A stretch of DNA of 40,039 nucleotides from a virus: IMG/VR virus record IMGVR_UViG_3300018012_000002, positions 1 to 40,039 of that record. One strand, given 5' to 3'. The notes under the pieces were generated by a model. It was not told where the DNA came from. It searched no databases and was given only the letters and a program-made list of their open reading frames with translations. Made by a program: the position numbers and the translations under genes. Positions 2,561 through 39,441 of the stretch are shown one piece after another. The stretch's first letter is position 1; each line of letters starts with the position of its first letter.

Positions 2561-3155
2561 AAACAACCGTTATGTTTCCGATGCTATTAATTACAACAAA
2601 AGAGGTGTTAGCCACATTACAAACCATGTAGACAGCGTCGTATGTTTTTGTAGAGGCTAAGCTGCCTCCAGTTCCAGAAGTAGTAGAAGCGGCTCCAAAG
2701 AAGATTTGTTGACCTGCGTTCTGAGCGATTTGCCAGCCGGTTGCGTTATTCATGCCAGCGACTGCAATGACCGAACCAACCACACATGTTGCAGGGAGAG
2801 TGAACACTAATGTGCCAGCGTTGTTCGCAAAATAACCGTTGTTTACCGACATCGCTTGAGTTGCGCCTGTGACAACTGTCCAGCTCAATCCGCTACCAAC
2901 AGCGCTGATCGTGATTGATCCAGATCCGTTGGAGATCGTAACCCCGGTTCCTGCTGTAAGAGTTGCCGCGCTCGGGTCATTGCCCGTGTTACCTATTGCA
3001 AGCTGACCATTGGTCAGGGCAAGAGAATCAATTGCATTGGAAGCTCCTCCAAGAAGAACCGCATGTTGTGTAAGTGTGCTGGCAGTAAAGGTGCCTGCGC
3101 CATCATACGTTGGCACGCCAGCCGACTGAAGGTTGATTGCATTATTTGTAGCCAT
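2559..3155 (-). CDS. Tail-fibre-like protein
   Basis: This 198-residue protein has an N-terminal half with the GVPTYDGAGTFTASTLTQHAVLLG and LTAGTGVTISNG themes of phage fibres. (Only short parts of those themes are meant as motifs.) The C-terminal half, about residues 95-198, is a beta-rich domain of the form NNGYFANN, LPATCVVGSVIAV, GWQIAQNAGQQI, GGSLAST and SIGNITVV. The same domain closes the next gene upstream (3679-3173), so the two are paralogous at their C-termini. It belongs to the receptor-binding cluster. Its exact structural place is unknown. Confidence 0.65.
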   Translation of the reverse strand: MATNNAINLQSAGVPTYDGAGTFTASTLTQHAVLLGGASNAIDSLALTNGQLAIGNTGNDPSAATLTAGTGVTISNGSGSITISAVGSGLSWTVVTGATQAMSVNNGYFANNAGTLVFTLPATCVVGSVIAVAGMNNATGWQIAQNAGQQIFFGAASTTSGTGGSLASTKTYDAVYMVCNVANTSFVVINSIGNITVV

Positions 3156-3172
3156 TTATTTCCTCTTTTTTT

Positions 3173-16957: not shown

Positions 16958-16965
16958 TATGATAC

Positions 16966-17040
16966 CTTGCCATACCCTGCCCAGCCGAGCTTTGCCTCGC
17001 GTCGCCTCGCCTTGCCCTGCGTTGCCCTGCCCTGCCGTGT
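16966..17040 (-). repeat. Short GGCAN/GGCGN pentamer tract
   Basis: About 15 imperfect pentamers of the GGCAN type (minus strand) fill the gap between two structural genes. It is the same motif as the long array at 25347-26325 but lacks the stem-loop units. The shared unusual motif at two loci suggests a phage-specific element rather than chance composition. Confidence 0.75.
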
Positions 17041-22537: not shown

Positions 22538-22634
22538 ATGGGAGAGTAGGATTCGAACCTACACCATGCCGACCTGAGGTAATCGACAACTCTAGCGAGA
22601 CGAGCTAGCGGGTCTACCATTCCCCCATCTCCCA
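22538..22634 (-). tRNA. Type II tRNA-like gene, abnormal anticodon loop (GUC by position)
   Basis: The cloverleaf is clear: acceptor TGGGAGA/TCTCCCA, U8-G9, a Leu-like D arm (GAATGGTAGA), anticodon stem CTAGC/GCTAG, a long variable arm with a 6-bp stem (TGTCGA/TCGGCA), and T arm GTAGG-TTCGAAT-CCTAC. The loop TCGTCTC has C instead of U at 33, a pyrimidine at 37, and GUC where the anticodon should be, which does not fit Leu or Ser. The discriminator is U and no CCA is encoded. It may be a degenerate tRNA, an allo-tRNA-type molecule, or a tRNA-like structure with another role. Confidence 0.65.
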
Positions 22635-25059: not shown

Positions 25060-25272
25060 CTAGTAACGATATCCTGGTTTCATGGGACGGCCTTTAATGT
25101 GACGATCGCCATGTTCCTGATCTCGTTGCACATGCTCGCTGGTGTCTGGATAATCCTTAATTCCTCCAGATCCTTCAGCGCTGTGGTACTCTTTAAGGTG
25201 GTTTTTTGATTTCATAGCCATATCAGAACTATGAGGCCATCCACCATAATCATTTATTTTCCGACCGGCCAT
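25060..25272 (-). CDS. Small hydrophilic basic protein
   Basis: This 70-residue protein starts MAGRKINDYGGWPHSSD and ends KGRPMKPGYRY. It is very hydrophilic with many His, Lys and Gly, resembling the other small basic proteins of this phage. It is flanked by the stem-loop/pentamer array upstream and the structured RNA candidate downstream. No family was recognised. Confidence 0.6.
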   Translation of the reverse strand: MAGRKINDYGGWPHSSDMAMKSKNHLKEYHSAEGSGGIKDYPDTSEHVQRDQEHGDRHIKGRPMKPGYRY

Positions 25273-25346: not shown

Positions 25347-26325
25347 CGAATAAAACCGTGCCGTGTGTTGCCTTGTCTTGCCATGCCCCGCCATGCCATG
25401 CCTCGCCGTGCCCTACCAAGATACCTGAGATCTTACGATCACATTAAACCGTGCCATGGGTTGCCTTGCGATACCTCGCCTGGCCAGGCCTTGCCAAGCC
25501 ATGAAACTTAGGCCTTGCGACCATATAAAACCATGCGATGCCTCGCCGTGCCATGCCAGTAAACTTTTGATCTTTCGACCATATGAAACCATGCCGTGTC
25601 TAGACGTGCCTTGCCCCGCCAAGCCATACCATACCTTGCCATGCCACGCCAAGATACCTGAGATCTTTCGATCATATAAAACCGTGCCATGCCACGTCTC
25701 GCCAAGCCTTGCCACGTCTCGCCAAGCCTTGCCCTACCGTAACGCGCATTGCCTTGCCCGACCTCAACTTGCCAAACCATGACTTGCCTTGCCCAATCAT
25801 TCCATAACAGGCGATACCTAACCGAGAAACTTTTGATCTAGCGATCATATTAAACCGTGCGATGCCCTGCCCTACAGCGCCGTGCCATGCGACGCCACGC
25901 CGTGCCAGGATACCTGAGATCCTTCGATCACATTAAACCTTGCCGTGCCAAGCCATGCCTAGCCAGGCCACGCCATGTCAAGCCATGCCGAGCTAAGCGA
26001 AGCCACGAAACTTAGGCCTTGCGACCATATTAAACCGTGCGATGCCAATCCTTGCCAATCCTTGCCATACCAGGCCCCACCATGCCACGCGCTGCCGAAC
26101 CAAGATATTTGAGATCCTTCGACCACATAAAACCGTGCCGTGCGATGCCTTACAGCGCCGTGCCATGCCACGTCTCGCCAAGCCTTGCCATGCCCTACCA
26201 GGTCTAGAAACTTTAGATTCTTCGACCACATAAAACCGCGCCTTACCAAAACGCGCTAAACGCCGCCTGACCTTAACTTACCAAACATCACCTTGCCAAG
26301 ACCACACCGCGCTATGCCTAGAAAC
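25347..26325 (-). repeat. Stem-loop repeat array embedded in GGCAN pentamers
   Basis: About 980 bases consist of two alternating components on the minus strand: runs of GGCAN pentamers, and a conserved unit of about 35 nt containing GGTTTxATxTG followed by a 4-bp hairpin. Nine hairpins are readable, starting near 25429, 25511, 25569, 25662, 25835, 25918, 26015, 26113 and 26216. Loops are GUAA, GCAA, GAAA, GAAA, GCUA, GAAG, GCAA, GAAG and GAAG. Stems vary between GATC/GATC, GGTC/GATC and GGTC/GGCC, keeping pairing by wobble or covariation. Long open frames here are by-products of stop-poor pentamers. Confidence 0.75.
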
Positions 26326-26910
26326 TTAGTCTTTGACCTGAGAGAAGGATAAAAGCTTGTATCGACCAAAACCTATCTTTCGTCCATCTCCGATGCCTTC
26401 AAATAGGCCGCCATTCTCGACACAGGATTTCATATCCTCTTTGGAAACGGCTCGATCATCCCAGCTTATTGTAGCTGCTGCTTGCCAGCCCTCTTTGGCA
26501 GCTACTCTATAGCGAAGATTTCGTCCTTTTGTCATGGGATTGACTACAGAACGTACATCTAGATAGACGAGTTCGTCAGATTTGCGAAGTATCTCATCGT
26601 CCGGGGGGACAAATCGATCTTTGATAAGAATTTTTTCCTCGACTACCTCAAGAGTAGCGCCAACTTTTTTGGAAAGATTCCCTTTGCCCACTTTAATGTG
26701 CTTTCCACCCCCCGTAATTGATCCTACGAGATAGGTATTGTAGACAAAGAGATTTCTGTCGGGAGTCATAAGTACAGTTCTTTTCCATGACTCCTCATCA
26801 TTACCTGTCATTCCTGACTTTGGTTTTGAAGCAGATAAAGTGTCGATAGGGAAGGTATTAAATAGAATTGTTTTAACACCTTCAATTTCGATTCTAAAAT
26901 ATATTTTCAT
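26326..26910 (-). CDS. RAMP-like (Cas7/Cas6-fold-like) phage protein, uncharacterised
   Basis: This 194-residue protein has an N-terminal strand (IYFRIEIEGVKTILFN), a middle part with LVYLDVRSVVN and RNLRYRVAAKEGW, and a C-terminal glycine-rich loop GLFEGIGDGRKIGFGRYKLLSF. The same order occurs in a widespread family of about 190-residue phage and plasmid proteins, and the last loop resembles the G-rich loop of RAMP RNA-binding proteins. It is controlled by its own promoter with a leader shared with the next upstream small gene, so it looks early and non-structural. RNA binding is an inference. Confidence 0.6.
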   Translation of the reverse strand: MKIYFRIEIEGVKTILFNTFPIDTLSASKPKSGMTGNDEESWKRTVLMTPDRNLFVYNTYLVGSITGGGKHIKVGKGNLSKKVGATLEVVEEKILIKDRFVPPDDEILRKSDELVYLDVRSVVNPMTKGRNLRYRVAAKEGWQAAATISWDDRAVSKEDMKSCVENGGLFEGIGDGRKIGFGRYKLLSFSQVKD

Positions 26911-37936: not shown

Positions 37937-38548
37937 ATGCAATCAGAAAACATCAATGAACTCGCTGGGGCTTTGTCTAAAGCTCAAGGCACAATGAAAA
38001 GCGCTTCGAAGGACGGGATGAACCCTCACTTCAAGAGCAAATATGCTACTTTGGATTCTATCTGGGAAGCGATCAAAGAGCCTCTTAGCCAGAATGGACT
38101 ATCGATTTCTCAGCTCATTAGCCAAGAGGCCGATACGACAGTGATGACGACTCTTTTAATGCATTCGAGCGGACAGTGGATCAAGTCGACGGTTCCCGTT
38201 ATTGCGGGCAAGCCGACTCCTCAAGCTCTTGGATCATCGATCAGCTACATGAGACGTTACTCTTTAGCTGCGATTGTCGGGGTAACTGTAGGCGATGATG
38301 ATGATGCCAATGAGGCGCAGAAGCATTATTATACTGCTACGAAAAAGCACTATCAAGCGCCTGTAGAGAAGGCTTCTGTGGATTATATTTCAGAGGAGCA
38401 AAAAGCGGAGATTGAGGCGCTTTTGAGCGATGACACTCAGCTCTACAGCAATCTTTTAAGTGCTTACAAAGTATCGGATTTGACTGAGATACCCTCTCGG
38501 TATTTCGAAAGCATCGTTAGAAACATTAAAACCAAAAAGGCAATATAA
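37937..38548 (+). CDS. erf: ERF-type single-strand annealing protein
   Basis: This 203-residue protein has the conserved ERF N-terminus: LSKAQGTMKSASKDGMNPHF, SKYATLDSIWEAIKEPLSQNG, LSISQL, then SSGQWIKSTVPV and PQALGSSISYMRRYSLAAIVG, and VGDDDDANEA. The C-terminal 60 residues are variable. ERF proteins anneal complementary strands and pair with a 5'-3' exonuclease, here the next gene, whose start overlaps this stop. The pair would circularise or recombine the phage genome. Confidence 0.93.
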   Translation: MQSENINELAGALSKAQGTMKSASKDGMNPHFKSKYATLDSIWEAIKEPLSQNGLSISQLISQEADTTVMTTLLMHSSGQWIKSTVPVIAGKPTPQALGSSISYMRRYSLAAIVGVTVGDDDDANEAQKHYYTATKKHYQAPVEKASVDYISEEQKAEIEALLSDDTQLYSNLLSAYKVSDLTEIPSRYFESIVRNIKTKKAI

Positions 38549-39441
38549 TGAGAAAGTTTAGAATTGTTGAAGGACCGGAAAGTGTACAGGGATCTGCGGA
38601 ATGGCTCCAATTCCGCAAAGATAAGATCGGGGCGTCGATGGCGCCCTGTATCATGGAGATTGATCCATGGAGGACCAAGTTAGAGCTTTGGGAGGAGATC
38701 ATCTTTGATCGGCCTAAAGAGAAGACCGCTGCGATGCAGAGGGGAAATGACATGGAAGAAGAAGCGAGGGGTTGGTTGAATGAAATGTGGAACTTTCATT
38801 TCCAACCCGCCGTTATTCAGAGCACGGAATATCCAAACTTGATTGCGTCACTGGATGGATATTTCGAGGACCAAGATGGTAACATATCTCTGGCTGAAAT
38901 CAAAGTGCCTTCAATGGAGGTGTATAACAAAGCGGTGGATGGGATCATTCCCGATCACTATTTTGCACAAATGCAGCATCAGATGATGCTCGCTGGCGTG
39001 AAGCAAATGGTCTACTTTGTCTATCGTGGCGGAGGCGGGGCTATGTTGACTTGCAAAAAGAATGATGCATACTGCAAGGATCTTTTGAAGAAGGAATTGG
39101 AATTTTTGAAGTCTATTCAAGATTTCGAACCGCCTTCTCCTTCCGAAAGGGATTGGAAAGAGATTAGCGATCCTCAACTGCAATCGAAGCTAGAGGCTTA
39201 TGACCAGTTGAATCGACAAATGAAAAGCATCAAAGATGAAATGGACTGTATAAAAGATTTTTTAATCTCTCAAGCAGACCATCCTAGGTTAGAGTATGGC
39301 CAAATGAAGATGCAAAAGATTCAGTCGAAGGGCGCTTACAACTACAGGATGCAAGTAGAAGAAATGGGCGTTGCCTTAAGTGAGAAGTACCGAGGCAAAG
39401 GCAAAGAGTACTGGACAATCAGATGTCATGAAATGGCTTAA
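38548..39441 (+). CDS. YqaJ/lambda-type exonuclease
   Basis: This 297-residue protein contains GSAEWLQFRKDKIGASMAPC, which begins the YqaJ domain, then a helical EEEARGWLNEMW. The catalytic core LIASLDGYFED...LAEIKVPS follows (Asp near residue 98, Glu-x-Lys near 115), then DHYFAQMQHQMMLAG, the expected Gln-containing motif after the core. This metal-dependent 5'-3' exonuclease makes 3' tails for the ERF protein. The residues after 190 form a helical extension. Confidence 0.9.
   Translation: MRKFRIVEGPESVQGSAEWLQFRKDKIGASMAPCIMEIDPWRTKLELWEEIIFDRPKEKTAAMQRGNDMEEEARGWLNEMWNFHFQPAVIQSTEYPNLIASLDGYFEDQDGNISLAEIKVPSMEVYNKAVDGIIPDHYFAQMQHQMMLAGVKQMVYFVYRGGGGAMLTCKKNDAYCKDLLKKELEFLKSIQDFEPPSPSERDWKEISDPQLQSKLEAYDQLNRQMKSIKDEMDCIKDFLISQADHPRLEYGQMKMQKIQSKGAYNYRMQVEEMGVALSEKYRGKGKEYWTIRCHEMA

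Follow-up and report, generated by a model that had tools for sequence, protein, structure and literature searches.

Introduction

Viral Interference Programmable Repeat (VIPR) systems were described in a 2026 preprint (PMC13142463). The Vipr protein is an early-branching RAMP that partners vrRNAs, each a run of 9 to 16 YNNGG repeats ending in a 3′ tail. Through the NN pairs, with a one-base skip between them, the complex recognises double-stranded DNA and represses the transcription of competing phages (PMC13142463). Seven types have been published, of which type II includes the systems of Escherichia phage SUSP1 and of a P. fulva prophage, and the experiments covered two closely related cultured systems (PMC13142463). 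Phages are thought to use VIPR to switch off their rivals. Here, we report, from an uncultivated P22-like phage, what is very probably the vrRNA array of a VIPR system: ten vrRNAs in a cluster, carried as a mobile gene-plus-array cassette, and one orphan tract. Its decoded guides are directly testable, and comparison across the family separates the truly invariant positions of the repeat from the others, a distinction relevant to guide reading by Vipr and to the ancestry proposed for the CRISPR RAMPs.

Results and Discussion

The window, meaning the whole stretch of DNA analysed, comprises 40,039 nt (IMG/VR record IMGVR_UViG_3300018012_000002, positions 1 to 40,039). On its minus strand, positions 25347 to 26320 parse into ten tandem units, starting at the stop codon (26326) of a gene for a 194-aa protein. 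Each unit has a 2- to 3-nt lead, a pentamer tract in a single register, and a tail opening with GGTTT; in nine of the ten, a conserved 30-nt tail with a 4-bp hairpin ends the unit, 3′ of the tract. In plus-strand coordinates the units start at 25420, 25503, 25560, 25653, 25826, 25909, 26007, 26104, and 26207, and a tenth, partial flank at 26321 overlaps the stop codon.

The pentamers are strictly periodic GGY-NN, and the only indel lies in vrRNA 1. Over the 117 pentamers of vrRNAs 2 to 10, G occupies the first and the second position in 87% each and C or T the third in 97%, with entropies of 0.69, 0.71, and 0.81 bits versus 1.54 and 1.80 bits at the two N positions. The top GGYNN run scored 62 (≤22 in 200 dinucleotide shuffles), and the same parser, run as a positive control, found GGY/NN tracts flanking the SUSP1-like vipr of Felixounavirus ESCO50 (OM386664) on either side.

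Numbered along the minus strand, the tracts hold 16, 14, 13, 13, 10, 28, 12, 5, 10, and 12 repeats, so that eight of ten carry 10 to 16. The first (26238 to 26320; tail GGTTTTATGTGGTCGAAGAATCTAAAGTTTC, 26207 to 26237) is degenerate, with a single 1-nt insertion and a decayed look. vrRNA 2 (tract, 26135 to 26206; tail, 26104 to 26134) reads NN = CT AG AT AA TT GA GT AT AC GC AA AT AC AC. It is followed by vrRNA 3 (26037 to 26103; tail with hairpin GGTC-GCAA-GGCC, 26007 to 26036), vrRNA 4 (25940 to 26006; tail, 25909 to 25939), and vrRNA 5 (25857 to 25908; tail, 25826 to 25856). With 28 pentamers, vrRNA 6 (25684 to 25825; tail with hairpin GATC-GAAA-GATC, 25653 to 25683) probably represents two fused or duplicated tracts. 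vrRNA 7 (25591 to 25652; tail, 25560 to 25590) reads NN = GT AT AA AT AT TT GG AA AC TA AC AT, and vrRNA 8, with 5 pentamers (25533 to 25559; tail with hairpin GGTC-GCAA-GGCC, 25503 to 25532), is probably truncated; vrRNAs 6 and 8 both fall outside the published repeat range. vrRNA 9 (25451 to 25502; tail with hairpin GATC-GTAA-GATC, 25420 to 25450) precedes vrRNA 10 (25358 to 25419; NN = AG AC GA AT AT GG AT AA AA AA AC AC), where the array finishes in a short end without a hairpin (GGTTTTATTCG, 25347 to 25357). In most tracts the final two NN are alike (AT/AC) and may therefore be part of the tail rather than of the guide.

About 8.3 kb from the array, an orphan tract of the same GGY-NN kind (minus strand, 16962 to 17036) carries 15 repeats and has no hairpin tail. 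Directly downstream of it is a possible small open reading frame (ORF) (ATG near 16958, minus strand), and the tract could act in trans or regulate this adjoining ORF.

A decayed stretch is common to vrRNA 1 and the first half of vrRNA 6, and blocks of NN are common to vrRNAs 2, 5, and 6. Judging by these shared stretches, the vrRNAs of the array seem to have arisen from one another via duplication and recombination. Internal duplications, among them the shared decayed stretch and the repeat GGCAAGGCTTGGCGAGACGT within vrRNA 6, would also suit functionless low-complexity sequence grown by replication slippage, which we consider very improbable: slippage would give identical units instead of two free and three fixed positions, hairpin pairing has been kept through sequence changes, and the linkage of tracts to vipr is family-wide.

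The nine complete tails share GGTTTNATRTGRTCG followed by a paired hairpin. Their minus-strand loops are GCAA (two), GAAA (two), GTAA (one), GAAG (three), and GCTA, making five of nine GNRA. When three tails of the closest relative were added to the nine of the window, 97.9% of the pair cells of the 4-bp stem were paired, and the stem covariation score was 0.455, a value reached by 2 of 500 shuffles; the third stem pair is altered on both sides, from U-A to G-C. Two tail subtypes alternate along the array, which suggests that it grew via duplication of a two-unit block. As a whole, the array is not unusually structured as RNA (folding z = −0.58 against shuffled sequence), which rules out stem-loops as its main feature; the hairpin is thus a small conserved tail of each unit and a minor part of the array.

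The original prediction had described an array of stem-loops separated by GGCAN pentamers. Its coordinates and copy number hold (nine hairpin units plus the partial tenth flank), as do the beginning at the stop codon of a RAMP-like gene, the five GNRA loops, the alternating flank types, and the stem changes that mostly keep pairing, also when tails of the closest relative are added. The hairpins are real, but the informative part is the pentamer tracts, read here as guides, with the hairpin as their 3′ tail; the pentamers themselves proved to be in-register GGY-NN, varying little at GGY and much at NN, rather than GGCAN tracts between units. The isolated pentamer tract that it placed at 16966 to 17040 exists, at the position given above. 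Searched as DNA against IMG/VR and phage records, its 35-nt unit gave no match or chance matches.

The 194-aa protein (26326 to 26910, minus strand) matches phrog_4652 and is a Vipr homologue, a minimal RAMP with an RRM core and a G-loop. phmmer matched it to SUSP1 Vipr (PDB 36pp; E = 8.5e-4), and a 20-member family profile matched the same entry at E = 1e-8, G-loop included, at a low identity to SUSP1-like Vipr (~25%). The C-terminal GxGDGRxIGFGR (GIGDGRKIGFGR) is the RAMP G-loop and is conserved in the family, of which 4 of 20 members have weak PF03787 RAMP matches. The AlphaFold (AF2) model used was built from 20 sequences (pLDDT 87.7, pTM 0.82; four sequences gave pLDDT 34). Foldseek returned 140 matches at E ≤ 0.001, and the best 50 matches in the PDB were all to type III-A Csm or type VII CRISPR complexes (best E = 2.2e-8), in chains that we take to be Cas7/Csm3-like RAMP subunits. 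Profile and fold matches thus bear out the earlier view of this neighbour as RAMP-like. Between portal and vipr are two small ORFs whose family is unassigned; they have no homologues near other viprs in the fetched loci, and no accessory vap gene was recognised.

Like the VIPR systems of SUSP1, the P. fulva prophage, and ESCO50, the locus is phage borne and combines a RAMP-fold Vipr of ~195 aa that has a G-loop with YNNGG (GGY/NN) tracts of 9 to 16 repeats, a conserved 3′ tail, and vrRNAs adjoining vipr on its sense strand. It differs from SUSP1 in protein sequence, in the number of vrRNAs (four there versus ten clustered and one orphan here), in the tail (a pseudoknot there versus, here, a short hairpin of 4 bp whose two subtypes alternate), and in having no recognised vap gene. 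With class 1 CRISPR-Cas and its Cas7/Csm3 backbone it shares the RAMP fold, the G-loop, and an RNA array with variable and constant structured parts, but the variable information here is split over NN pairs and there are no repeats with unique contiguous spacers. A CRISPR array was accordingly rejected, as it had been in the original prediction: the sequence between units is periodic GGYNN rather than a unique spacer, and no cas genes were found among the ORFs examined. In some VIPR arrays, hammerheads are interspersed among the vrRNAs (PMC13142463). Structured RNA separates the vrRNAs here as well, but as a 4-bp hairpin without a hammerhead core, and a hammerhead ribozyme array was discarded as a candidate after the window array gave no Rfam hammerhead match even at E 5. 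In one relative (L118), the units have between them a UUCG hairpin together with CTGAGGAG/CGAAA motifs that resemble a hammerhead core, with no match in Rfam.

An alignment of four Vipr sequences retrieved 23 viral loci, of which 22 were counted after removal of one duplicate. In 21 of these 22 loci, and in none of the shuffles, the sense strand of vipr carried pentamer tracts no more than ~640 bp from the gene; the sequence of L133, the one locus without tracts, breaks off where the matched gene ends, and the tracts of L117 are of a weaker, mixed form. Relatives carry the same type of tract beside vipr with other hairpins or none, and in some, tracts also precede vipr. In L118, L119, L121, L122, L126, and L130, inspection by eye picked out HNH-endonuclease-like ORFs just 3′ of vipr, as expected for nuclease-bearing VIPR types. 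A Vipr protein search of genome contigs returned none.

Most members have GGY as their constant triplet; it is GGA in three non-adjacent lineages (L115, L116, and L131), GTY in L124 and L130, and a mixed GKY in L120. On the protein tree, GGA needs three gains or losses, forced by well-supported branches, and GTY forms one clade. Across these variants the NN positions remain free to vary, and of the triplet only the leading G is close to invariant. It is conceivable, and we put it forward tentatively, that the frame marks of VIPR are evolvable and that Vipr tolerates, or co-evolves with, different spacer triplets, in which case differing triplets could give competing phages mutually independent guide sets. 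Such drift may be partly known already, because a supplementary figure of the preprint mentions "a related consensus" (PMC13142463). Four GTT-NN tracts (minus strand, about 25 to 74, 233 to 282, 616 to 715, and 3094 to 3163) occur in L049, a portal relative whose 20.7-kb fragment contig has no Vipr match; vipr may lie outside the fragment, or the array may work with another protein.

A P22-type portal and terminase are on the same contig as vipr. In the window, vipr and the array sit between the portal gene and a gene for a 70-aa protein; homologues of these two are 0.3 kb apart in L025, and the close relatives L025 and L028 lack the cassette at that site. The 70-aa protein (25060 to 25272; 11481 to 11693 in L025), of unassigned function, is kept in most portal relatives (76 loci) and marks the empty cassette site. 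In L031, L045, and L029 the cassette is near the portal but flanks it from the opposite side and is inverted. Between the window and L031, identity is 82% for Vipr and 73% for the portal, values that fit transfer of the cassette between phages. Only 1 of 42 further portal-relative records had vipr, and that distant vipr is also flanked by tracts; among near-complete relatives scanned whole, tracts occurred only in the two with vipr.

This distribution bears on whether the array might instead be a DNA element whose 5-bp iterons a phage protein binds, as a signal for packaging, replication, or partition. A 5-bp spacing is about half a helical turn, and the cassette is near portal and terminase genes, but its position and orientation vary among relatives, most of which lack it, tract-free relatives of the same lineage exist, and the tracts accompany vipr into other phages while keeping to its sense strand; we regard such an element as extremely unlikely. 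Among the roles originally suggested for the array, binding by the RAMP-like protein is plausible, but an RNA decoy, capsid binding, and a packaging or replication signal gain no support, because the same tracts, with other hairpins or none, adjoin vipr in other phages and are absent from close relatives without it.

As a vrRNA array, the region would likely serve this phage by repressing rival elements, through the same mechanism and competitor targeting as in the published system, whose expression, RNP formation, one-base skip, and repression are carried over here by analogy (PMC13142463). In this model, vipr and the array would share a transcribed strand, and processing or termination would yield from every unit a small RNA with ~10 to 16 GGY-NN repeats and a 3′ hairpin tail. 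Copies of Vipr would assemble along the repeats, keeping the constant GGY unpaired and presenting the NN pairs, which would jointly read DNA of the form NN-x-NN-x-NN. Once bound, the complex would block transcription of its targets, for which genes of rival phages or of satellites are the likeliest candidates.

Searches that applied the one-base-skip rule recovered no natural target: sub-patterns of vrRNAs 7, 2, and 10 against IMG/VR viral contigs, and all guides against ~3.5 Mb of partly overlapping fetched phage DNA, gave nothing above controls, and in the DNA examined a skip of 1 was no better than skips of 0, 2, or 3. For vrRNA 7, 8 NN had 72 matches, none extending across all 12; for vrRNA 2, 9 NN had no match in viral contigs. 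For vrRNA 10, 9 NN gave six matches, about the chance rate and none convincing, one of them with 22 of 24 bases (in L214). Two of the six, with nine consecutive NN matched and differing wobble bases, lie in a portal-like gene of two other phages (VRTDIIGIKNPQT; L209, 6176 to 6201, and L212, 173 to 198) and, though no more than such a scan would give by chance, offer a lead. A match of vrRNA 6 at 19 of 20 in L219 was set aside as not significant, since permuted guides reached 18 and ~186 windows were tried. Because the IMG/VR scan covered three guides only, each as an exact sub-pattern, the target result is weak evidence against the guide reading.

The missing target would also suit a 3′ element of the vipr mRNA with a regulatory role, or a sponge RNA titrating the RAMP-like protein, in either case without DNA targeting. 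The array lies directly at the vipr stop codon on the same strand, and vrRNAs 1 and 8 look degenerate or too short. We nonetheless hold this explanation to be unlikely, since NN is hypervariable while GGY is held, as in a guide, the orphan tract is 8.3 kb away, tracts also lie upstream of vipr in relatives, and the homologous system has been shown to be RNA guided (PMC13142463). For the vrRNA reading, sense NN falling on codon positions 1 and 2, as wobble skipping predicts, is only slightly favoured: this phase was best by a small margin both in the window (log-likelihood −292.8 versus −294.0 for the next) and in L031 (−255.9 versus −259.2).

Among genome contigs, portal relatives lay on phage contigs that had been binned with Nitrospiraceae, Patescibacteria, Bacteroidetes, Pseudomonadota, and Simkania, with no agreement on a host; of 116 Simkania-class genomes, 2 had a related portal. 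Elsewhere in the window, an ERF-type annealing protein is followed by a YqaJ-type recombinase nuclease (37937 to 39441), and a tRNA-Arg (TCG; ARAGORN and Rfam) at 22538 to 22634 is unusually long at 97 nt.
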